From: Paenibacillus sp. FSL W8-0186
GTDB taxonomy: Bacteria > Bacillota > Bacilli > Paenibacillales > Paenibacillaceae
Length of the DNA stretch: 64,000 bases
Reading direction: 5' to 3'
Assembly (NCBI RefSeq): GCF_037969765.1
Contig: NZ_CP150207.1
Coordinates: 1,536,001 to 1,600,000, forward strand
The notes under the pieces were generated by a model. That model did no database searches. It saw nothing but the letters and a program-made list of their open reading frames with translations, and was not told the DNA's origin. Shown here in pieces: positions 47,754-60,410 of this stretch. Both the position numbers and the translations under genes were made by a program. Position 1 is the first letter of the stretch, and each line of letters starts with the position of its first letter.

Positions 47754-47781
47754 ACCTTACCGGGGGAATATGCATATTTTG
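47754..47781 (+). promoter_or_regulatory. Sigma-K-like promoter of the CotSA-like gene
   Basis: AC (47754-47755) and CATATTTTG (47773-47781) are 17 bp apart. The -10 element differs from CATANNNTA only at the last base. It lies about 40 bp before the GT4 start codon, divergent from a similar element for the YheC/D-like gene. Confidence 0.42.
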
Positions 47782-49046: not shown

Positions 49047-49172
49047 CGGCCGGAAAAGGACTGTACGTTTGCCGTTGCAACGCCCCCCTGCAAACATACA
49101 CTGTAAAAGGTAGTACAAAAAGCCCTATTCGTTCTCCATTGCAGAAGCAGCTGGGACAGGGAGGTGAATAAC

Positions 49173-49988
49173 ATGCTTAGGAAACGCAAGCTGGCACGCC
49201 GCTCTGCGCGGCAGATCCCATACTACAAACGGCCCAATTGGCGCGTGACAAATCATCCAAACCCAGCAGTGTCTATCATTGTTCCAGCGATGAACGAGAG
49301 AAATACAATAAAGGGCGTTCTCTATGAAGCTCACAGGGTTCATCCTCGCAGTGAAGTCATCGTCGTAGCTAACGGATCGACGGATGGAACAGAATCCTTG
49401 GCCAGGAGATGCGGCGCCCGCGTCATCGCGGTTGCGGAGCCGCTCGGACATGACGTTGGACGCCGTGTCGGCGCAGAGGCTGCAAGAGGACAAATATTGT
49501 TATTTATTGATGCCGATATGGTTATTCCCGCTAGGGAGCTTCGCCCCTTCGTCAAGGCGATACACGGGGGAGTGGACGTGGCTTTGAACGATTACTCGGG
49601 GCCCATGGCAGGGCGGGAAGTTCATCCCGTCGTGTTGGCTAAATTTTCGCTGAATGCCATGTTGGGCCGATCCGATTTGAAAGGAGCTTCCCTGACGGCG
49701 GTTCCTCATGCCATAAGCCGCAAGGCGATCGAATCCATAGGATATAGCGCGCTGGAGGTGCCGCCGCTGGCCCTGGCCATTGCGGTGCTTCGAGGATGCA
49801 AAGTAAAAGCCGTGCATGCCATTCAAGTCGGCAGAATAAATCCGATTAAATACAAAAACAGGAGAGCTGATCCGCTAACCAGCCTGATCGCTAGAGATCA
49901 TTTGGAAGCTGTGCATCGACTCATTCTAGAACAAGGCCCGCGTGGGGGATATGGGGATCTCGGGCGCAGGCGAGACAAGGTGAGGTGA
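49173..49988 (+). CDS. GT2-type glycosyltransferase, paralogue A1
   Basis: This 271-residue GT-A enzyme begins with a basic tail (MLRKRKLARRSARQIPYYKR) and continues SIIVPAMNERNTIKGVL, with the acidic NGSTDG and the metal-binding FIDADMVI. Later motifs LGRSDLKGASLTAVPHAISRKA and VPPLALAIAVLRG are shared with the next gene, so the two are tandem paralogues. GGGAGGTGA lies upstream of the ATG. It is first in the operon 49173-56479. A sigma-E-like -10 (CATACACT, 49095-49102) lies in the leader region. Donor and acceptor are unknown. Confidence 0.87.
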   Translation: MLRKRKLARRSARQIPYYKRPNWRVTNHPNPAVSIIVPAMNERNTIKGVLYEAHRVHPRSEVIVVANGSTDGTESLARRCGARVIAVAEPLGHDVGRRVGAEAARGQILLFIDADMVIPARELRPFVKAIHGGVDVALNDYSGPMAGREVHPVVLAKFSLNAMLGRSDLKGASLTAVPHAISRKAIESIGYSALEVPPLALAIAVLRGCKVKAVHAIQVGRINPIKYKNRRADPLTSLIARDHLEAVHRLILEQGPRGGYGDLGRRRDKVR

Positions 49989-49993
49989 GAAGC

Positions 49994-51097
49994 ATGCCAA
50001 GAAGAAAATACGAGATGTTGATTAGCAGACGGCGCTCTGCTGATCAATTTCAAGTCCGAAGACGCCCCAGCCATCAGCAGCGGAATAGAACTTCAAAACC
50101 GCAAATGAAATCCAGAATGAGATGGGAAGAGCTTGAGGAGAAGGCCTATCGTGCCGGTAATGCCGCGGCTGTGTCGCAGACGGAAAACCCGCATTCGTAT
50201 GAGCATATGCAGACTTCCTATAAGGAATGGTATGGGGAAAAATTCAATGAAACACTGCCTTGGCGCAGCGTGCTGGCCATTTCGAATGCATACCGCCGCG
50301 GGTACAACAAGTTCGCAAAGCAGACGGTACAGGGAATTCCGTTGCCGCTGTATGGTAAGGCGTCAGCGGTTGTTTCTGCCTGCAATGAGGGGAGCACGAT
50401 CGCAGCCGTTATAGCTGAATTGCTTCGGCTGCCCATTCAGGAAATTATCGTCGTACTGAACGGGTGCAAGGACGGCAGCTTCCGTTCAATCGAAAGCAAT
50501 GAGCGAGTAACGGTAGTAAGCTACCCCGAGAGGCTGGGGCATGACGTGGCTCGCGCTATCGGAGCCTCACTTGCTAGCGGCGATACCGTGTTGTTCGCGG
50601 ACGGCGACATTGTCCTTGCTGCTGAGGACTTGGCTCCATTTCTAGTGGAAGTCGAAAATGGGATTGATGTGGTTCTGAATGACATTTCCCCCTACCTGCC
50701 GCCATTCTCCAAACAGGATGCTGTGACCCACAGCAAGATGTTTCTTAATTATATGCTGGGGCGCCCCGATTTGAAGGCAAATTCCTTGACGGCTGTTCCC
50801 CATGCTTTGTCCCGACGTGCCCTGGCTTCCCTTGGAGCCACAGCGCTAATCGTGCCGCCGAAGGCGCTGGCGCTGGCGATCGCGCAGGGATTGAAGATCC
50901 GGGCTCCACGCCCGGTGGATGTGGTGAGGAACAACCGGCTGCGCAGCGGCAATGTCGGGGACGGAAATGAAGTATCCCGGCTGATCCTTGGCGATCATAT
51001 TGAAGCGTTTGAAGCGGTAATGCGCCTGCAGGGGCGCAGACTGAATATGACAAGGCTGCCGCGGAGCGAGCTGGCTAGAAAGAGGAATGGCAGATGA
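49994..51097 (+). CDS. GT2-type glycosyltransferase, paralogue A2, with N-terminal extension
   Basis: This 367-residue protein has a ~110-residue N-terminal extension rich in Arg (MPRRKYEMLISRRRSADQF) that includes two weak AYRxG-type motifs (AYRAGNAAA and AYRRGYNKF). A GT-A domain follows with VVSACNEGSTIAAVI, NGCKDGS and metal site FADGDIVL. GRPDLKANSLTAVPHALSRRA and VPPKALALAIAQG match the preceding gene. GAGGTGAG precedes the ATG at 49994; the gene begins 5 bp after the previous stop and overlaps the next by 4 bp. Confidence 0.86.
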   Translation: MPRRKYEMLISRRRSADQFQVRRRPSHQQRNRTSKPQMKSRMRWEELEEKAYRAGNAAAVSQTENPHSYEHMQTSYKEWYGEKFNETLPWRSVLAISNAYRRGYNKFAKQTVQGIPLPLYGKASAVVSACNEGSTIAAVIAELLRLPIQEIIVVLNGCKDGSFRSIESNERVTVVSYPERLGHDVARAIGASLASGDTVLFADGDIVLAAEDLAPFLVEVENGIDVVLNDISPYLPPFSKQDAVTHSKMFLNYMLGRPDLKANSLTAVPHALSRRALASLGATALIVPPKALALAIAQGLKIRAPRPVDVVRNNRLRSGNVGDGNEVSRLILGDHIEAFEAVMRLQGRRLNMTRLPRSELARKRNGR

Positions 51098-52599: not shown

Positions 52600-52635
52600 A
52601 CAATCACCATAATGAGTGAGAGGAGGGAGCATAAA

Positions 52636-53679
52636 TTGGATAGAATGCACAGCAGACGGGCAAGGCGCCGAAGGCGTAATTGGAACAGGGCAAGACGCCG
52701 CACAAGGACGGGGAAGCGAGCGCCGTCACGGAACCGGTCGGGACTGGCAAATGGACGGCTTTCTGTGGAATCCTCTTTTGCGCCTTCGGCCGATCCTCTC
52801 GAAGAGGATATAGCTATACCAGGGAAGGCCGCAGGCTGTAACTATGACGAAGGTTACCGGCAAGGTTATTATGAGGGTGGTGAAGCCAAGGTAGAACGCC
52901 AGCTCCCTCCTTTCACCTTGCTGCCGGATCTTACTATAGACGACGTAATTGCCTTGGGGATTCAGCAAGTAACAGCGTCGCTCGTTCCAGTCATGTCCCC
53001 CACGGCAGTATGCGCGGCAGTCATTCGTGCTCTGGAACAGCGGCAGCCGTTATCAGTCATACGTCTCGGCGACGGGGAAGTCCTCACCTTGGCACATGAT
53101 ATGATCATTTCCGTGGAAGAGGCCAAGCTTTTGGGGCCATTCCTGCCCTACGCGGGAGTAACACTTCCTGATACGGCTGCCCGCCGGTCATTGGCGGAAT
53201 CCATCCGCCAAGCGAATATCGTTGGAATTCCCGTCTCTCGTCATCCTTCGTTCCAAGGGTTGTTATTTCCGGCCTTGAATCAGCACGGCATATCCCACCG
53301 TATGCTGAGAATGACTTTCTCTACGGTGAACTACGCCTTGCATGAACAAGGATTGCTATATCGAATGCTTTCCGGGCGGCAGCTGCTTCTTATCGGAAAT
53401 AAGGCGGCCGGATTAGCGGACGTGCTAGGCAGCCGCGGTTTGGAAGTTACCGGAATCATCACTCCGGTTAAGGGAGTGCATGACGTGCAGCGGATTATAG
53501 AACAAGCCGCTTCGATTGAATTTGATCTTGCCTTGGTAGCAGCCGGGGTAGCCGCTGTTATGATTTGCACAGCCATCGCTCAAGAATTAGGCAAGGTGTC
53601 ATTTGACATAGGGCATTTAGCAGATCTGCTGGTGAGCGGGGGGACCTTTTTGCTGCCGGGAGTGGAGGTGAATGGATGA
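52636..53679 (+). CDS. GT-D-fold glycosyltransferase with Arg-rich head and glycine tag
   Basis: This protein of about 347 residues has three parts. An N-terminal basic, probably disordered head (RRARRRRRNW, TRTGKRAPSRNR) comes first. Then a short tag YDEGYRQGYYEGG (about residues 70-82) recurs in four other proteins of the cluster. A GT-D domain (about 115-345), with VIRLGDGEVL and later GNKAAGLADVLG, completes it; GT-D is the fold formerly called DUF1792. TTG at 52636 is preferred because AGGAGGGAG is 6-9 nt upstream; the ATG at 52612 has no ribosome site. The start of the next gene overlaps its stop. Confidence 0.83.
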   Translation: MDRMHSRRARRRRRNWNRARRRTRTGKRAPSRNRSGLANGRLSVESSFAPSADPLEEDIAIPGKAAGCNYDEGYRQGYYEGGEAKVERQLPPFTLLPDLTIDDVIALGIQQVTASLVPVMSPTAVCAAVIRALEQRQPLSVIRLGDGEVLTLAHDMIISVEEAKLLGPFLPYAGVTLPDTAARRSLAESIRQANIVGIPVSRHPSFQGLLFPALNQHGISHRMLRMTFSTVNYALHEQGLLYRMLSGRQLLLIGNKAAGLADVLGSRGLEVTGIITPVKGVHDVQRIIEQAASIEFDLALVAAGVAAVMICTAIAQELGKVSFDIGHLADLLVSGGTFLLPGVEVNG

Positions 53680-55028
53680 GCCGAGGAGGGTATCTGCCTC
53701 TGCGCCGGGCTGTGCAGAAGGAACGGGCAGAGGCGATTAACCGCTCAAAGCGGAAATCTGCTGTGGAGTATCGGGCCGGATTTCAGGCCGGTTACCGGCT
53801 TGGGTTAGAGGAGGGGCAGCGCACTTTTGCCATTCCTTTTGAAGGCACGAGCATTGTTATTCCTACTTATAATCAAAAAGAGCTGCTTCTGCAGTGCATA
53901 GACAGTATCGAAGCTCATACAGAGCAGCCCTATGAAATTATCGTTGTTGACGATGGCTCTACAGACGGAACAGCTGAGGCGCTGCAGCGGCGAAGGGGCG
54001 CAATTCGCGTCGGCAGCCATCGCAAGAACTTAGGATTTGCTAGCGCTGTAAATACTGGATTGATGATGGCCAAGGGGCAAAAGATCGTGCTGTTAAATAA
54101 CGATGTTATCGTGTCTGAACGCTGGCTTAAGCAAATGCTCGCCGTACTGGAGAGCAATCCTAATGCGGCGATCGGTCCGGTTACGAATTATATCGGCGGC
54201 GAGCAGCAGATAGATACTGATTATGTCAGCCGATCGGAAATGGAATCTTTCGCGGCGAATTACAATGTGGCGGACAGATCCAAATGGCGGGAAACCGATC
54301 GGCTTGTAGGCTTTTGTGTATTATTTCGACGCGAGCTATTTGAAGAGGTTGGCTATTTTGATGAGGGATTTGAGGTTGGAAACTTTGAGGATGATGATTG
54401 GATGCTGCGCCTGCGGCTGCAGGGCAAGCATTTAATTATTGCGGGGGATACATTCGTCCATCATATCGGAAGCGTGACCATGAAGGGGCTCGGCGAAGAT
54501 CAATATTCAGTCGTGAATCATAGGAATGAGAGCCTCTTCCATGAGAAATGGGGAAAACCCTTTGAACTTGTTCAACGTTTGAATCCCCAAAAGGGCAGGC
54601 TCTGCCCTCGTAAATCCAGTGATTTTTTTCCGACGCATGTCTGGGTGGAAGGGGCTGGGAGGCTATTTTGGCTGGAGCACGGCGTTAAATATCCGTTCAT
54701 TGATACGTCGTCCGGTAACATGCCGAATAATCCGACTAGGCTATCGGTCATTGATTTGGTACAAATTCCTACGGGAACCAGGTATTCAAGGGGGAAATCC
54801 GCTTATCAGGAAAAAGGATTTGTGCGGGAGGGGGCGGTAGTTCGGTGCGGGAACGGCTATTTATATCAAGTCGATCAAGGCCGCCTGCGAGAAATTGCTT
54901 CAGATTATGCTTGCGGCCTTTGGGGTCTATCTATCGAGCCGGATCCTATTTCACCAGAGGAGTTGAGAAAGTTCGAGGAGGGCGTGCCGATCCTGCCGCC
55001 TCCCCGATTGAAATCGGAGGATCTATAA
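53676..55028 (+). CDS. GT2 glycosyltransferase, paralogue B2, tagged, with C-terminal beta domain
   Basis: This 450-residue protein has a basic N-terminus carrying the tag YRAGFQAGYRLGLEEG (32-47). A GT-A domain (about 55-300) has IVIPTYNQKELLLQCI, VVDDGSTDGT, LLNNDVIV and GNFEDDDWMLRLR. A C-terminal domain of ~140 residues looks beta-rich and has two similar turns (LFWLEHGVKYPFID and YLYQVDQGRLREIA). That last part resembles short propeller-like repeats of wall or surface proteins, but I cannot name it. It is a longer relative of the gene at 51094. GGAGGTGAATGG precedes the ATG. Confidence 0.86.
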   Translation: MSRGGYLPLRRAVQKERAEAINRSKRKSAVEYRAGFQAGYRLGLEEGQRTFAIPFEGTSIVIPTYNQKELLLQCIDSIEAHTEQPYEIIVVDDGSTDGTAEALQRRRGAIRVGSHRKNLGFASAVNTGLMMAKGQKIVLLNNDVIVSERWLKQMLAVLESNPNAAIGPVTNYIGGEQQIDTDYVSRSEMESFAANYNVADRSKWRETDRLVGFCVLFRRELFEEVGYFDEGFEVGNFEDDDWMLRLRLQGKHLIIAGDTFVHHIGSVTMKGLGEDQYSVVNHRNESLFHEKWGKPFELVQRLNPQKGRLCPRKSSDFFPTHVWVEGAGRLFWLEHGVKYPFIDTSSGNMPNNPTRLSVIDLVQIPTGTRYSRGKSAYQEKGFVREGAVVRCGNGYLYQVDQGRLREIASDYACGLWGLSIEPDPISPEELRKFEEGVPILPPPRLKSEDL

Positions 55029-55069
55029 ATCCCCGTTCATGGCAGTAACGGCGAGGGTGAGCCTCGCAT

Positions 55070-55135
55070 ATGCTGGAACAGGTGAAGCCGGGACCGATGC
55101 ACAATCATACTTTTGTACCCGGCATAATCGAGTAA
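55070..55135 (+). CDS. Possible 21-residue peptide gene
   Basis: ATG at 55070 is preceded by GAGGGTGAG with about 8-nt spacing. The frame encodes MLEQVKPGPMHNHTFVPGII plus a final Glu. It lies in the 123-bp gap inside the spore-surface operon. The ribosome site is fair but the length is minimal and no family is known, so this is only a candidate. Confidence 0.25.
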   Translation: MLEQVKPGPMHNHTFVPGIIE

Positions 55136-55151
55136 AGTAGGGGGAATCCCG

Positions 55152-55439
55152 GTGGAACAGAAGATCACAGAACTCATCATTCATTTGTCCCACTCACATG
55201 CGCAAATCGCGCGAATCCTCGATGCGGAGAGGCAGGTTGCAGTACGAATAGCGCAGATCATTCATGCTATTCCTGATGCTGAACCGGCTTTCGATGGGAC
55301 CGATGGGTTGATTGAAAGCGCAGGGCGGATTAACAAGAGTGTTGTCTCCTATTTGAATTCAATTGCCGAGCTGCAGGAAGCCATGGCGGAAAATTTGGAG
55401 CTCGTGGTCAAGGAGTTAAAAGATCAGGATGAAGAATAG
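55152..55439 (+). CDS. Small helical protein, paralogue 1 of 3
   Basis: This 95-residue protein starts at GTG with GGGGGA upstream. It is predicted to be almost all helix: a first helix LIIHLSHSHAQIARILDAE, a loop with IPDAEPAFDGTDG, and a second helix SVVSYLNSIAELQEAMAENL, ending in the acidic KELKDQDEE. The helix-1 core (A-R-I-L-D) and the helix-2 pattern LxxxQxAxAxxL recur in the next two genes. No known family was recognised. Three tandem relatives in a glycosyltransferase operon suggest a structural or scaffold role. Confidence 0.75.
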   Translation: MEQKITELIIHLSHSHAQIARILDAERQVAVRIAQIIHAIPDAEPAFDGTDGLIESAGRINKSVVSYLNSIAELQEAMAENLELVVKELKDQDEE

Positions 55440-55462
55440 GTTGCTAGAGTGAGGATGATATC

Positions 55463-55813
55463 ATGAGCAGAGAGCAGTCTTTTATGAATGTGTTGGATGC
55501 GGCAGCCAAGGTTCAATGGAATGTGGCTATGATTTTAGAGGCAAAGGCAGTAGAGGTTGAAAAAGCGCGCAACTGGATTATGAACCATGTGCACGGGGGG
55601 AGCTTCGAAAGCCACGAGAAGATGCTGTCAGAACCGCTCGATATTCATGAACAGCTGGTTGAAGTGATAGACGGGTTAACTAAGCTGCAGAGCGGTTTTA
55701 ACAGTAATTTGAAGGCTGTGCTTACATCCGATGAGGATGAGTCGGGCTCTGACGATGGCGGATTTGACGGATTATTCAGCGGTTCCTTTGATTTGGAGGA
55801 CACGGAGAAATGA
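55463..55813 (+). CDS. Small helical protein, paralogue 2 of 3, acidic tail
   Basis: This 116-residue protein has helix 1 VLDAAAKVQWNVAMILEAKA and helix 2 LVEVIDGLTKLQSGFNSNL, matching the neighbours. Its distinctive part is an acidic, Gly/Ser-rich tail (SDEDESGSDDGGFDG and then DLEDTEK), probably disordered. The tail is opposite in charge to the arginine-rich proteins of the same operon, which hints at electrostatic pairing. GTGAGGATGA precedes the ATG; the stop overlaps the next ATG (ATGA). Confidence 0.75.
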   Translation: MSREQSFMNVLDAAAKVQWNVAMILEAKAVEVEKARNWIMNHVHGGSFESHEKMLSEPLDIHEQLVEVIDGLTKLQSGFNSNLKAVLTSDEDESGSDDGGFDGLFSGSFDLEDTEK

Positions 55814-56163
55814 CAGCGGGTATCGGCTCTGTCGAGGCATCTAAGCTGCGGCTGATAGATTCGATTGCTAGGAGCCAAACAGCGATGGCGCGAATTTTGG
55901 ACAGTCTGGCGGATGTGACGGATCATTCGGCTGAGACGGCCCGCCATTTAGCTCATAATATCCAAGTTCTGGCCAGGTATCAGCAAGCCATTGCGCAAAC
56001 GGTATGCGGTATTAGACTGCATCAAGTACACTATGGAACTCCTTCAATGCCTTGGATTATGGATTCTTGTTACCCGGCAAACATCGCAGCCCGAGGAGTA
56101 CGGGAGGATTTAATCCATGTTAACGACCAAGACCCGGCGAAAACGCCGAACAAAGCTGGTTAG
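55810..56163 (+). CDS. Small helical protein, paralogue 3 of 3
   Basis: This 117-residue protein contains helix 1 LIDSIARSQTAMARILDSLA and helix 2 HLAHNIQVLARYQQAIAQTV, then a C-terminal segment of different character (HYGTPSMPWIMDSCYPANIA) without clear relatives here. It overlaps the previous gene by 4 bp and the following arginine-rich gene by 47 bp in another frame. Tight coupling suggests the set is made in fixed ratio. Function unknown. Confidence 0.74.
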   Translation: MTAGIGSVEASKLRLIDSIARSQTAMARILDSLADVTDHSAETARHLAHNIQVLARYQQAIAQTVCGIRLHQVHYGTPSMPWIMDSCYPANIAARGVREDLIHVNDQDPAKTPNKAG

Positions 56164-56479
56164 AAGAAAAACAGGTTTAAGGGGCAAACACAAACGATTA
56201 GTTAGACGCAGACGCAGGCATCTTGTCCGGAAATCGGGCCACAGAATCAGGCGTGTGCGATCGCGGCGGAAAAAAACGGCCGTTTCGCCGGCTCGCGCTG
56301 TAACTTCCCCAGCAGGGATTCCAGAGCAAGAACTGCCAGTTGATTTGCCAGCGCCCCCGGTACATGATCCGGCCTTGTTTCAACAGGCCTATGATGAAGC
56401 CTACCAGGAGGGATTCAATTCGGGATTCTCTAAAGGCTTTGAAGATGGCCATAAATTATCTTATAAGAATAGAGTTTGA
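56117..56479 (+). CDS. Arg/Lys-rich protein with C-terminal glycine-aromatic tag
   Basis: This 120-residue protein has no enzyme domain. Residues 1-54 are extremely basic (TRRKRRTKLVRRKTG, LVRRRRRHLVRKSG, RIRRVRSRRKKT). A Pro/Ala/Val-rich linker (about 55-88) follows, and the C-terminus carries the clearest copy of the tag, AYDEAYQEGF then NSGFSKGFEDG (91-111). GGGAGGA lies 6 nt before the ATG. It is the last gene before a terminator. It could be a spore-coat structural peptide whose head binds acidic partners and whose tail docks on enzymes with the same tag; this is inference. Confidence 0.78.
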   Translation: MLTTKTRRKRRTKLVRRKTGLRGKHKRLVRRRRRHLVRKSGHRIRRVRSRRKKTAVSPARAVTSPAGIPEQELPVDLPAPPVHDPALFQQAYDEAYQEGFNSGFSKGFEDGHKLSYKNRV

Positions 56480-56484
56480 CTGTA

Positions 56485-56525
56485 AGCGGGCTATTACTCC
56501 GGCACTACCGGGGAGGCCCGCTTTC
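56485..56525 (+). terminator. Terminator ending the 49173-56479 operon
   Basis: AGCGGGC (56485-56491) pairs with GCCCGCT (56516-56522) and encloses a second CCGG-CCGG hairpin. A short TTTCT follows. Efficiency may be moderate because the T tract is short. Confidence 0.7.
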
Positions 56526-56629
56526 TCGTGGCATTCGCCAATTTATGAGGTTTCCGGGTAGTCGTCCATGATGCACATGCCCTCCAAGCATATATTTATA
56601 CAGACCTAGGAAATTTCAATATAGATAGG

Positions 56630-57727
56630 ATGAATGCCTTGGAAATTTTGAATAATCCGGATACTAGCAAAGCCTACCAGGATGGGTTTCTTGAGGGCTA
56701 TAGGTTCGGCGGGTGCCAGGCTGTTCTGGAGCGAGTCTCTAAGCAAGAATCGCCCAGCAAAAGCAAATGCCGCGTCCTCTATGTTCCTCAAGGCTTCGAG
56801 GCGATCGATCGCGGGGTAGCGGAGGCGCTAAGCGAGCTGACGGAAGAGTCCGCTGTGGCCGCCCCTGGGTCCGCATTGGCTATGGCGGTCTCCTTCCGCC
56901 CTGACTTGGTCCTCGTAATGAATGGTCTCCATGTATTTCCTCCTGAGCATGAGGAGCAAATCCAGGCCATCCGCGGGCTGGGAATCCGTACGGCGATATG
57001 GTTTGTCGACGACCCCTATTTTACGGATGATACGGTTCGGATGGCTCCAGCCTATGATGAAGTATTTACGCATGAACTGGAATGCGTCGAGCTCTATCAG
57101 AGAATCGGCTGCCGGAGGGTTCATTATCTTCCGCTTGCGGCGAATCCGCAAATGTTTCGCCCGGTGCGTTCTTCACTGCAATACCATTACGATATTTGCT
57201 TTATCGGCAATGCTTTTTGGAACCGAGTAAAGCTATTTGATCAGATGGCTTCCTACCTGCAAGACAAAAAAGTGTTCATTGCGGGGCAGCATTGGGAGCG
57301 CCTGGCTAACTATGACCTGTTGTCCAGGTTCATTAGCAACAAATGGATCGAGCCAGAAGAGACGGTGTCGTACTATAACGGGGCCAAAATTGTTATTAAT
57401 CTTCATCGTCCTACGGAGGCCGGATCGGATAACCGGAATGGGCTGAACATTCCCGGGGGCTCGATTAATCCTAGAACCTATGAGATCGGCGGATGCGGAA
57501 CATTGCAAATGACGGATTGCCGGAGCGATTTGACACAGCACTATAAACCAGGGTATGACATTGAGACATTTGCTGATGCGGCTGAGCTTCAAGCTAAAAT
57601 CGATTATTATTTGAGCCACGATCATGAACGTATCCAAATGGCCTGGCGCGCCTTGTGGACGACTCGATCCAAGCATACGTTTCATCGGCGTATTACAAGT
57701 TTGCTTGCTGCATTGGAAATCAAGTAA
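56630..57727 (+). CDS. cgeB: CgeB-like glycosyltransferase 1, with glycine tag
   Basis: This 365-residue GT-B-type enzyme is of the CgeB family, known for modification of the outermost spore layer. Near the N-terminus is the tag AYQDGFLEGYRFGG (15-28). The core contains IRTAIWFVDDPYFTD, CRRVHYLPLAANP, CFIGNAFWNRV, and the C-terminal nucleotide-binding part NPRTYEIGGCGTLQMTD. The ribosome site is weak (GATAGG immediately before ATG). The next gene is a paralogue, so the pair arose by duplication. Donor sugar unknown. Confidence 0.86.
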   Translation: MNALEILNNPDTSKAYQDGFLEGYRFGGCQAVLERVSKQESPSKSKCRVLYVPQGFEAIDRGVAEALSELTEESAVAAPGSALAMAVSFRPDLVLVMNGLHVFPPEHEEQIQAIRGLGIRTAIWFVDDPYFTDDTVRMAPAYDEVFTHELECVELYQRIGCRRVHYLPLAANPQMFRPVRSSLQYHYDICFIGNAFWNRVKLFDQMASYLQDKKVFIAGQHWERLANYDLLSRFISNKWIEPEETVSYYNGAKIVINLHRPTEAGSDNRNGLNIPGGSINPRTYEIGGCGTLQMTDCRSDLTQHYKPGYDIETFADAAELQAKIDYYLSHDHERIQMAWRALWTTRSKHTFHRRITSLLAALEIK

Positions 57728-57764
57728 GCAACTAGCGACGCGATAATCAAGAGGGAGTGACGAT

Positions 57765-58898
57765 ATGTTCGTTCATTCGGATTTACAATCAACGGCTATA
57801 CGGGAAGGAGAAGCTCATGATTCAAGCAGGAGGGGAAGGGAGGCTGGGTTAAAGCATGGCTTCGAGGAGGGATATTTACGCGGGCGTGCAAAAGCGATCG
57901 TGGAGGCAGCCCCTATTCATTTCCCGAAAAGAGCTTTAAAGGTTCTCTATGTGTCCTCAGGCAAGGGCTTCCCTTATGCTCCCATCGATGAGGCCATTAT
58001 TGCGACTCTCCAAACGCTGGCAGCAGAAGTGAGCGTAGCGGGGCCCAAGCAGCCGGTGTCGGAACTTGCGTCGAGCTCTTTGCCTGATTTGATGCTTGTA
58101 CTGGATGGGATGGAGCTGCCTGTTGAGCAAGTAGACGCGGTACGTGCTAAAGGGATTCGAACCGCTATTTGGCTGACGGATGATCCTTATTACACGGATA
58201 TAACCATAAGAACTGCGCCTCATTATGATTATGTATTTACCTTGGAGCGCAATTGCCTGGATTTCTACCGTTCTGCAGGGTGCAACAATGTACATTATTT
58301 ACCTTTTGCAGCTCATGTAGGCCATTACCGCCCTACGTTAACCCGTTCCCCTGTTCGGCGTGCAATCAGTTTTATCGGCTCGGCCTACTGGAATCGGATT
58401 GAATTTTTGCAGCCGATCATTGGCGGCCTCATGGAAAAGGGCTTAACGATTAATGGAATTTGGTGGGACCGGCTGCCTGAATATGCATCCTATCCAGACC
58501 GGATTGAAATTGGTAAATGGATGGGGCCTGGCGAAACGGCAGAAGTATATAGCGGCTCAAAAATCGTGCTGAATATGCACCGTTCTCCTTATGATACGAC
58601 CGTAAATAACAATTCGGTCGGCCTTACGGCTGCATCTCCCAATCCCCGAACATTTGAAATCTCCGCCTGCGGAACATTGCAGCTTGCTGATGTGCGGGAT
58701 GACTTGGCCAGCTTCTATGTTCCAGGCCAGGAAATCGAGACCTTCAGCAATCCAAGCGAGCTGTACGACAAAGTTAATTTTTATTTGGATCATGAGACGG
58801 AGCGGCGTGAGATTGCGCTGCGCGCTTTGGAAAGAACGTATCGCGAGCATACGTATTCCCACCGACTTCATGAAATGCTCAGCCGGATATTTAGTTAG
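57765..58898 (+). CDS. cgeB: CgeB-like glycosyltransferase 2, with glycine tag
   Basis: This 377-residue paralogue of the previous gene shares IRTAIWLTDDPYYTD, CNNVHYLPFAAH, FIGSAYWNRIEF and NPRTFEISACGTLQLAD. Its N-terminus carries the tag GREAGLKHGFEEGYLRG (24-40). GAGGGAGTGA precedes the ATG. It lies 37 bp after the first copy and 63 bp before the GT4 gene. The two copies may add successive residues of one glycan; that is inference. Confidence 0.86.
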   Translation: MFVHSDLQSTAIREGEAHDSSRRGREAGLKHGFEEGYLRGRAKAIVEAAPIHFPKRALKVLYVSSGKGFPYAPIDEAIIATLQTLAAEVSVAGPKQPVSELASSSLPDLMLVLDGMELPVEQVDAVRAKGIRTAIWLTDDPYYTDITIRTAPHYDYVFTLERNCLDFYRSAGCNNVHYLPFAAHVGHYRPTLTRSPVRRAISFIGSAYWNRIEFLQPIIGGLMEKGLTINGIWWDRLPEYASYPDRIEIGKWMGPGETAEVYSGSKIVLNMHRSPYDTTVNNNSVGLTAASPNPRTFEISACGTLQLADVRDDLASFYVPGQEIETFSNPSELYDKVNFYLDHETERREIALRALERTYREHTYSHRLHEMLSRIFS

Positions 58899-58961: not shown

Positions 58962-60410
58962 ATGTCAAAATTGAAGAAGCTGTTGTTGTTCTCGCATATT
59001 TGCAACAAGAGGAATATTACAGGAGCGGAGAAGCTGCTGCTCTTTCTGGCCACGAGATTATCGCCTTATTTCCAGTGCGTCATCGTCGTTCCCAAAGAAG
59101 GACTGTTAACACGGCTAGCCGGCAGATGCGGCATAAGAACGATTGTACAGAATATTCCGCTCCTATACGGAATGTGTTTGCCTCATGAAGGTTTAGCGCA
59201 GCATGCCGACGATTTGCTGAGGGGAGCAGCGTTTAAAGAGACTTCCCGGCTTCTAGCCGCAGAACGGCCGGATTATGTACTAGTTAATACCAGCACCCAC
59301 GTGGTCCCGGCAATGGCAGCGAAATCTATGGGTGTCCCCGTTATTTGGCATATTACCGAAGTGATTGCCAGCAACGATTATACGGGAACTTCTATTCGAA
59401 ATATCGACCAGTACAGTGACTGGATTGTATGCATTTCGGAATCTGCAGCCGCCCCTTTCCGCGGTTGCTCTGCCGGGAAACTCCGAATATTATATCCTTC
59501 TTGGTCTTGGAGTGATTTTAACCCCCATATGTGGCCGCAGCTGCGCGAGCAGCAGAGACAGCAATGGAAAGTGAATTCCGATGACAGGGTGATTGGCTAT
59601 ATATCGTCTTTTTTGATCCCTGAGAAAGGTGCGGATCATTTTATCGAAGCAGCCCTGATACTGGCAGGGCAATATCAGCAGAGCAAATTTGTGATTATCG
59701 GCGCTGAATTGAGTAACCCGTTTTATCTTAAGCTTCGGCAAAGGATCACCGAATCCCCTTATGCGGAACGGTTCATATTTATCGATTATGTGTCAGATAT
59801 CGAATCAGCATTTAGCGCGATGGATGTGGTTATTGTCCCTAGTATGAAGGAGGAAGGCTTCGGCCTAACGGCGATGGAGGCCATGATCATGGAAAAGCCG
59901 GTCATTGCTTATGCTTCCGGAGGCCTGGAAGAAATATTGCGATTAACAGGAAATCAGCCGTTTCTCGCTCCTGTCGGAGAGTATTCCGAGCTTAGCGCAA
60001 GAGTATCCCGGTTCCTTGATGAGCCGGATTTAATAGAATCCGTCGGCCGCAACAACCGAATTCAGATTGAAGCCTGCTTCGGTCCTGAGGCTTATGAAGC
60101 TAATCTGCAGGCCATGTTGAACCATATTGGCCGCGCGACTCCTAGTGCGGTCCCTGTGGCAGATCTGCCTTCGCTTCGCCCCGTACGATCGAGTCCAAAG
60201 ACTCGGCGCAGGGCTAAAAAGGCCAGGCTGTTGCCCTCTGCGCGAAGACGGCTGCAGAGCATAAAGAGCCGAAAGCTCGTCATGAATCTGAAGCGTCTAA
60301 AACGGGGGCGTAGGGGAAGCGAGGCTCGAGTGAAACGCGGCGCGCGGAGTATACGCTCCATCCGGCGGGTTAGCCATATGCGAAGAAGAAAAGATAAGAA
60401 GAGACTGTGA
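58962..60410 (+). CDS. GT4 glycosyltransferase with long basic C-terminal tail
   Basis: This 482-residue protein has a GT-B domain (about 1-390) with GAEKLLLFLATRLS, VIWHITEVIAS, IGYISSFLIPEKGADHFI and the E-x7-E region VPSMKEEGFGLTAMEAM. A C-terminal tail of ~80 residues is very rich in Arg/Lys (KTRRRAKKARLLPSARRRL and RRVSHMRRRKDKKRL). Such tails are absent in ordinary GT4 enzymes and recur in this locus, suggesting targeting to an acidic coat component. AGGAGAGG precedes the ATG but is folded into a hairpin. Confidence 0.86.
   Translation: MSKLKKLLLFSHICNKRNITGAEKLLLFLATRLSPYFQCVIVVPKEGLLTRLAGRCGIRTIVQNIPLLYGMCLPHEGLAQHADDLLRGAAFKETSRLLAAERPDYVLVNTSTHVVPAMAAKSMGVPVIWHITEVIASNDYTGTSIRNIDQYSDWIVCISESAAAPFRGCSAGKLRILYPSWSWSDFNPHMWPQLREQQRQQWKVNSDDRVIGYISSFLIPEKGADHFIEAALILAGQYQQSKFVIIGAELSNPFYLKLRQRITESPYAERFIFIDYVSDIESAFSAMDVVIVPSMKEEGFGLTAMEAMIMEKPVIAYASGGLEEILRLTGNQPFLAPVGEYSELSARVSRFLDEPDLIESVGRNNRIQIEACFGPEAYEANLQAMLNHIGRATPSAVPVADLPSLRPVRSSPKTRRRAKKARLLPSARRRLQSIKSRKLVMNLKRLKRGRRGSEARVKRGARSIRSIRRVSHMRRRKDKKRL

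Follow-up and report, generated by a model that had tools for sequence, protein, structure and literature searches.

How the soluble glycosyltransferases of one pathway stay together in the mother cell is left unexplained by their catalytic domains, and a gene cluster in Paenibacillus sp. FSL W8-0186, which is probably a spore-surface locus, suggests a possible answer. In the window analysed here (64,000 nt, positions 1,536,001-1,600,000 of contig NZ_CP150207.1, from a genome of one 5.66 Mb contig), the same short tag, with a glycine at every fourth residue and often Tyr or Phe after it (the GX3 tag), is carried by five proteins: a GT-D fold glycosyltransferase (GT-D), a family 2 glycosyltransferase (GT2d), a small basic Arg-rich protein (ArgR) and two CgeB-like enzymes (CgeB1 and CgeB2). 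These short names, like GT4a, GT2a-c and sm1-3 below, were coined in this analysis. We observed the presence of the tag, its clustering in the locus, its conservation, specificity and lineage, its independence from catalysis and its retention in an adjoining pair of ArgR and GT2d genes. We lean, with slightly more belief than doubt, towards a model in which association helices of the FliH/Yae1 type would hold GT-D, GT2d, CgeB1 and CgeB2, and weakly another family 2 enzyme (GT2b), together, with ArgR as the hub.

The tag and its rarity

All five glycine-aromatic segments are in frame where a preliminary description of this DNA had placed them, and all lie on the plus strand. In GT-D (52612..53679; PF22882, E-value (E) 3.6e-76; NF040628, E 4.3e-74) the tag (52843..52881) follows an N-terminal region rich in Arg and precedes the GT-D domain, and in GT2d (53676..55028; PF00535, E 9.9e-34) four tag glycines (53769..53816) stand directly ahead of the GT2 domain. 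ArgR (56117..56479), the proposed hub or anchor, has a net charge of about +25, no enzyme domain match in a Pfam scan and a four-glycine tag at its C-terminus (56402..56449). The tag of CgeB1 (56630..57727; DUF3880 plus Glyco_trans_1_2), read from the sequence, has three glycines (56672..56713). That of CgeB2 (57765..58898), a paralogue of CgeB1, has five (57834..57884) in an i+4 register (G24, G28, G32, G36, G40), more than had been excerpted before. Because CgeB1 and CgeB2 are paralogues, with 42% identity over residues 16-360, the hosts form four unrelated families and not the five originally claimed. The weaker version suggested for GT2b is conserved as well: the half-tag (50288..50314, plus strand; small-Tyr-xx-Gly-Tyr) recurs as small-[YF]xxG[YFW]xx-small in 30 of 55 GT2b proteins, among their first 220 residues, and at no position in any of 547 control proteins from eight untagged families of the locus. 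Open reading frames (ORFs) were called mechanically, from first start to stop, so that N-terminal lengths are rough.

Searched as a degenerate DNA pattern, G-[FY]-x-x-G-[FY]-x-x-G matches the genome 41 times, and its reversed control 27 times. Six of the 41 matches fall within the 5 kb of the locus, a clustering for which a binomial estimate gives 2e-12, or 4e-10 with two overlapping ArgR matches counted once; both figures are descriptive only, because the region was chosen after the fact. The other 35, part of which were read (with minus-strand matches among L001-L030 left out of the frame reading), are mostly short open frames, segments that we take to be SLH-like, glycine-rich repeats, FliH and a few longer ORFs. 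Searching the same genome with a tag profile (A1; 25 columns, 58 tag segments) places the five tags at ranks 1-5 (E 4.8e-9, 5.8e-7, 6.0e-6, 1.0e-5 and 1.2e-5), an order that is partly circular because A1 was built in part from this genome's own tags and those of close relatives; no such circularity affects the DNA pattern or the tests below in which a family is left out. Rank 6 of the ten matches at E ≤ 10 is a 289-residue open frame (E 0.033) that Pfam identifies as FliH (PF02108, E 1.5e-14). In line with the preliminary description, the pattern thus clusters in the locus and is not equally common elsewhere, whether in its own genome or among 250 genomes of the class. One motif on unrelated proteins of one pathway, and rare elsewhere, is what marks a heterotypic docking tag, and the tagged proteins show this distribution.

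Within the family Paenibacillaceae, 76 of 118 genomes, from 16 of 19 genera, have a profile match at E ≤ 1e-3, and at the loose threshold of E ≤ 1 there are matches in 39 of 39 genomes of the genus. Matches occur in 31 of the 250 class genomes, 21 of which are Paenibacillaceae; in the ten outside the family all are weaker than E 5e-5, and seven of these ten lie in open frames of 247-292 residues, which are of FliH size, judged by size only. Against solved structures the profile gave three matches, all at E 0.6 or worse, and no near match was found in plasmid records. A search for ArgR homologues, restricted to proteins up to 1.75 times the query length and so excluding large fusions, returned seven proteins of 116-124 residues. 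Among the open-access papers listed on CgeB, spore-surface glycosylation, GT-D, glycosyltransferase complexes, GxxxG, deca-GX3 and FliH, none was seen to describe these tags.

Conservation and independence from catalysis

CgeB matches occur in all 40 genus genomes (in G011 the best match is CgeB2, and CgeB1 is only a remnant). The tag was followed through 135 stretches, comprising 35 loci from the genus, 20 stretches from 18 genomes of other family genera (two genomes give two each) and the best 80 of 314 named loci; comparison of the last 200 CgeB2 residues left 111 distinct stretches, with 24 duplicates dropped. ORFs under a family's minimum length were excluded from the counts, and, wherever the identity filter had passed over them, diverged GT2d proteins of eight loci were added by hand. 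A strict pattern, three glycines at i+4 plus at least two Phe, Tyr or Trp at set positions, is present in 354 of 363 members of the tagged families (CgeB1 90/92, CgeB2 102/102, GT-D 44/50, GT2d 60/61, ArgR 58/58); among other ORFs it is present in 10 of 2,110. It was found in 0/59 GT2a, 0/55 GT2b, 0/54 GT2c, 0/66 RmlA, 0/20 GT4a, 0/87 GT4b and 0/84 WecB proteins, in 0/85 and 0/77 members of two sugar-nucleotide families, and, among the small proteins sm1-3, in 0/59 sm1, 2/46 sm2 (in glycine-rich tails) and 0/45 sm3. The ten other ORFs are two sm2 proteins, three diverged GT2d proteins (counted under GT2d too), two SLH-like proteins, one glycine-rich protein and two ORFs at the place of sm3. 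The last two, which are unassigned (L078:11003-11422 and L080:11009-11452), carry GxxxGxxxGY and may represent sm3 itself or a frame that overlaps it.

What sets the tag apart is its glycines. Their conservation is 0.92-1.00, compared with 0.21-0.37 for the 26 upstream columns; the values are 0.92-0.96 in GT-D (51 sequences; upstream columns 0.21) and 1.00 in GT2d (57 sequences), while the enzyme domains score 0.65-0.73. The tag columns of ArgR reach 0.89, compared with 0.39 for its residues 1-80. The five glycines of CgeB2 are invariant in 16 of 16 sequences that are 46-68% identical to the CgeB2 of the window, and also in 24 of 24 sequences in chain numbering; G19, G23, G27 and C29 of CgeB1 are likewise invariant in 16 of 16 and 24 of 24. 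This Cys (residue 29, 56714-56716) sits two residues past the last tag glycine (GxxxGxC), and a Cys stands at the matching place in 6 of 16 CgeB2 sequences, all six from other genera. One locus, L105 (G031), appears to be decaying: CgeB2 and GT2d are split into several ORFs and the CgeB1 tag is damaged.

When each family was removed from the profile in turn and searched for in all 135 stretches, duplicates included (E ≤ 1), the remaining tags recovered ArgR in 70 of 80 cases, CgeB in 44 of 250 (both CgeB families out), CgeB1 in 46 of 119, CgeB2 in 18 of 131, GT-D in 20 of 67 and GT2d in 7 of 80, and they matched 1 to 4 of 2,578 other ORFs, some of them diverged GT2d. The recovery of left-out families relative to other ORFs indicates that the motif, though short, is common to them beyond background. 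A chance origin of the tags was rejected on the DNA-pattern clustering, the profile ranks, these left-out tests and the counts in tagged families versus other ORFs. The tags may derive from one module or have arisen by convergence, both being compatible with about 25 residues.

The tag also appears separable from the domains that it accompanies. CgeB matches (E ≤ 1e-15) occur in 16 genomes outside the family, and in ten of these the best match starts at profile positions 51-65, past the tag (about 31-48); in two (G198, G358) it starts at 30-31 and reaches doubtfully into the tag, and four matches cover the later part only and are uninformative on the tag. Seven of these loci were read (two more gave no ORF), and in five of them the CgeB frame is free of GxxxGxxxG. 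These untagged homologues suggest that the tag is an add-on, and a tag that is part of every CgeB fold was rejected because most of the informative homologues outside the family have none. In family 2 glycosyltransferases NND and EDD are presumed to be catalytic motifs, and they are changed in the GT2d of eight loci from three groups: P. zeisoli (L094), an unnamed genus member (L098), P. campinasensis (L242), and P. terrae, P. sp. BJ-4, P. farraposensis, P. ottowii and P. maysiensis (L196, L210, L213, L221 and L233, respectively). All eight keep the glycine chain, L210 failing the aromatic count only (two SLH-like proteins were excluded from this count), and the tag is therefore kept without the enzyme motifs. 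Both the untagged CgeB homologues and these GT2d proteins support a tag independent of the enzyme fold, in line with the earlier view that it is modular. The eight motif-altered proteins are also candidate pseudo-glycosyltransferases in their own right.

How little of the locus suffices to keep the tag can be seen in genomes without CgeB. A CgeB match at E ≤ 1e-60 is present in 96 of the 118 family genomes; at E ≤ 1e-3 the tag profile matches 73 of these 96 and only 3 of the 22 without CgeB (G054, G107 and G134). In G107 and G134, both drafts of 99% completeness, a tagged ArgR gene lies directly 3' of a tagged GT2d gene, and neither sm1 nor sm2 is matched at E ≤ 0.01. The same searches match in three controls (G057, G045, G052) and in G050 at 1.8e-33 or better; in G050, which has a weaker ArgR match (E 0.0017), sm1 and sm2 separate ArgR from GT2d by about 1 kb. 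The pair of ArgR and GT2d in G107 and G134 is the smallest tagged unit found, in searches that covered the tag profile, CgeB, sm1 and sm2, and with no sm1 or sm2 match in either genome these two proteins are not needed for the tag to be retained. Obligate docking on sm1 or sm2 was rejected on the same two genomes.

A putative association helix

The likeness to FliH repeats that had been proposed for the tags is supported by their residue composition and by the rank of FliH as the best match outside the locus. In 285 distinct tags, the residue after Gly is Tyr in 35% and Phe in 17% (together 52%), and the third residue is Glu in 20%, Ala in 14% and Gln in 10% (44%). In the published FliH analysis (PMC2674601), the first repeat position is Tyr or Phe in more than 45% and the third Glu, Gln or Ala in about two thirds; its authors propose that the first position makes helix-helix contacts, and FliH is dimeric, with repeats that in their view pair with each other. 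Composition thus fits the FliH-type GxxxG description, with poorer agreement at the third position. FliH/YscL, the stator of flagellar and type III export, is nevertheless one family with its own C-terminal domain, whereas the tag is an add-on of three to five units on four unrelated families, and none of the tagged proteins of the window matches PF02108 at E ≤ 1. The best NCBIfam FliH model matches the ArgR tail at E 5.7e-4, far below its cut-off.

A second relative in kind is Yae1/Lto1, eukaryotic adaptors of cytosolic Fe-S assembly in which GX3 repeats, as in the tags, join two different proteins to one another. As described in PMC4523923, the deca-GX3 motifs mediate heterodimerisation, and glycine changes in Lto1 weaken the complex with Yae1, strongly in the middle and C-terminal part and moderately for the N-terminal pair. 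The ArgR tail matches Yae1_N (PF09811) at E 4.1e-4 and 20.4 bits, below the curated cut-off of 27.5 bits; CgeB2 scores 11.7 bits, and the other tagged proteins are unlisted at E ≤ 1, which places the tags outside that family. They also have 3-5 glycines each (six in 1 of 285) instead of about ten GX3 repeats, and the locus has no link to Fe-S. Because the composition fits while the family cut-offs are not reached, the tag may act like FliH and Yae1 repeats and yet lie outside both families.

In the assembly that we propose, each tag would form a short amphipathic helix along which the glycines make a ridge lined by Tyr and Phe, added at the end of an otherwise unrelated protein. Such helices could pack glycine face to glycine face and so hold GT-D, GT2d, CgeB1 and CgeB2 together, with GT2b bound weakly and ArgR, the most conserved partner, as the probable hub. 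Through the Arg-rich parts of ArgR, of the GT-D N-terminus and of the GT4b tail, the assembly might be tethered to an acidic surface, and the whole would act while spore-surface glycan is being built. To judge from sequence, the tagged proteins probably assemble into one complex, and gathering of the enzymes on one scaffold, as first envisaged, is a reasonable inference. A broader proposal, held tentatively and with somewhat more doubt than belief, is a bacterial docking code in which one GX3 helix would be placed on glycosyltransferases of three folds (the GT2 and CgeB-like enzymes, which we take to be GT-A and GT-B, and the GT-D enzyme, of the GT-D fold) and on a basic hub, with catalytically dead members serving as structural parts.

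Each tag could instead pair only with copies of itself, as in FliH, every enzyme reusing the same solution and no common complex being formed. We consider this rather unlikely. It would accord with the self-pairing ascribed to FliH repeats (PMC2674601), with tag endings that differ between families and with the lack of detectable cross-family coevolution in 31 loci; yet the own-genome profile finds the proteins of one locus and then FliH, the tag is also present on a tiny basic protein without an enzyme domain, two tagged genes of different kinds adjoin in both G107 and G134, and a motif of the same kind forms heterodimers in Yae1/Lto1 (PMC4523923). The tags might also bind, in place of each other, one shared receptor that has no tag, for instance a protein of the coat or crust, or sm1-3. 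The last three, small and probably helical proteins without tags (55152..56163, plus strand), lie inside the locus between GT2d and ArgR, are helical by eye and include two that are acidic and well conserved (sm1 and sm2; sm3 is neutral). Against such a receptor stands the retention of tagged ArgR and GT2d in G107 and G134 without an sm1 or sm2 match (E ≤ 0.01; sm3 was not searched genome-wide), and we hold it to be improbable.

Two further alternatives place the function within the tagged enzyme itself. In each enzyme the segment could be simply the opening helix of the fold, serving catalysis or stability, as its position directly ahead of the catalytic domain in GT2d, CgeB1 and CgeB2 would allow; given that most informative CgeB homologues outside the family have no tag, that GT2d proteins without catalytic motifs retain it and that in ArgR it is C-terminal in a protein with no enzyme domain match, this is very unlikely indeed. 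O-Tyr-linked glycans occur on S-layer proteins of Paenibacillus, and a Tyr-rich tag could by analogy be a glycosylation acceptor, each enzyme starting a glycan on Tyr residues of its own tag. That has next to no probability in our view, since Phe freely replaces Tyr, following Gly at 65% of ArgR positions, and the near-invariant residues are the glycines; a Tyr acceptor was rejected on the Phe content.

Several observations nevertheless weigh against an assembly of tag on tag at a sporulation locus. Tag-tag distances do not correlate beyond the divergence of the catalytic domains (mean partial r -0.002 over ten pairs in 31 loci, compared with -0.031 for random windows), and the value of the best pair, GT-D/ArgR at 0.24, is equalled or exceeded in 9% of tag-window nulls and 4% of window-window nulls; this result leaves docking possible without supporting it, because a backbone-driven glycine interface needs no side-chain coevolution. 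Recognition across families in the left-out tests is partial and poorest for GT2d, and family-specific tag endings would equally suit pairing of like with like. Whole-tag columns (0.61-0.89) do not exceed the 30 downstream columns (0.51-0.71) in every family. GT-D is the least constant host, missing the strict pattern in 6 of 50 cases: in the part read, L240 and L246 keep a shortened remnant and L085 lacks only the aromatics. In G198 and G358, which belong to one genus outside the family, GxxxGxxxG does occur in the possibly coding stretch of open frame that precedes the likely start codon of CgeB. The 88% complete genome G054 has a tagged ArgR beside GT2a-c and no CgeB at 1e-60, with no tagged enzyme within the 20 kb read around ArgR; its other profile matches genome-wide are a FliH-sized 289-residue ORF and two short ones. 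The putative sporulation role, finally, is based on the gene names CgeB and YheC/D, together with four sigma-K-like boxes at 47781, 55075, 62331 and 62496, matched to a sigma-K consensus with no chance control; the boxes at 47781 and 55075 lie shortly before GT4a and sm1. As a side observation, G054 contains a 67-residue ORF (L303:9762-9965) with a tag-like segment (profile E 0.0014 and 0.035), on a contig other than that of ArgR.

The locus and its wider setting

The genes of the locus run in the order GT4a, GT2a, GT2b, GT2c, RmlA, GT-D, GT2d, sm1, sm2, sm3, ArgR, CgeB1, CgeB2, GT4b, WecB and sugar-nucleotide genes, preceded on the opposite strand by a gene that we take to be YheC/D-like. Among the named genomes scanned, the nearest is that of Paenibacillus woosongensis 12CR55 (CgeB2 97%). 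Basic Arg-rich tails are a second feature common to the locus, with 10 to 23 net positive charges per 40 residues; they are N-terminal in GT-D (52612-52750), GT2a (49164-49230) and GT2b (49985-50110), C-terminal in GT4b (60190-60410; net charge of GT4b +28) and also present in ArgR (56117-56300). Many orthologues of the 116-residue sm2 (55463-55813) are publicly named 'restriction endonuclease subunit S' and labelled PF26595; sm2 had no match in the Pfam copy used here, and the name looks like a propagated error, as the protein sits in a glycan locus.

CgeB/CgeD and sps are spore-crust glycan genes of Bacillus subtilis, and the present locus resembles them in its CgeB-like and GT2 enzymes; outside the family, CgeB in 10 of 16 genomes aligns only past the tag, unlike the tagged CgeB here. 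The GT-D enzyme shares its catalytic domain family (PF22882/NF040628) with GT-D fold glycosyltransferases of the DUF1792 kind, from which it differs by its Arg-rich N-terminus and GX3 tag.

A module of 20 residues on GT2, CgeB-like and GT-D enzymes and on a basic partner makes the question of how such enzymes stay together testable by mutating three to five glycines. If the assembly proposed here is real, it would widen the known uses of the GX3 repeat beyond FliH/YscL and Yae1/Lto1, the printed cases seen here, and the tag could become a compact helical part with which to build enzyme assemblies.

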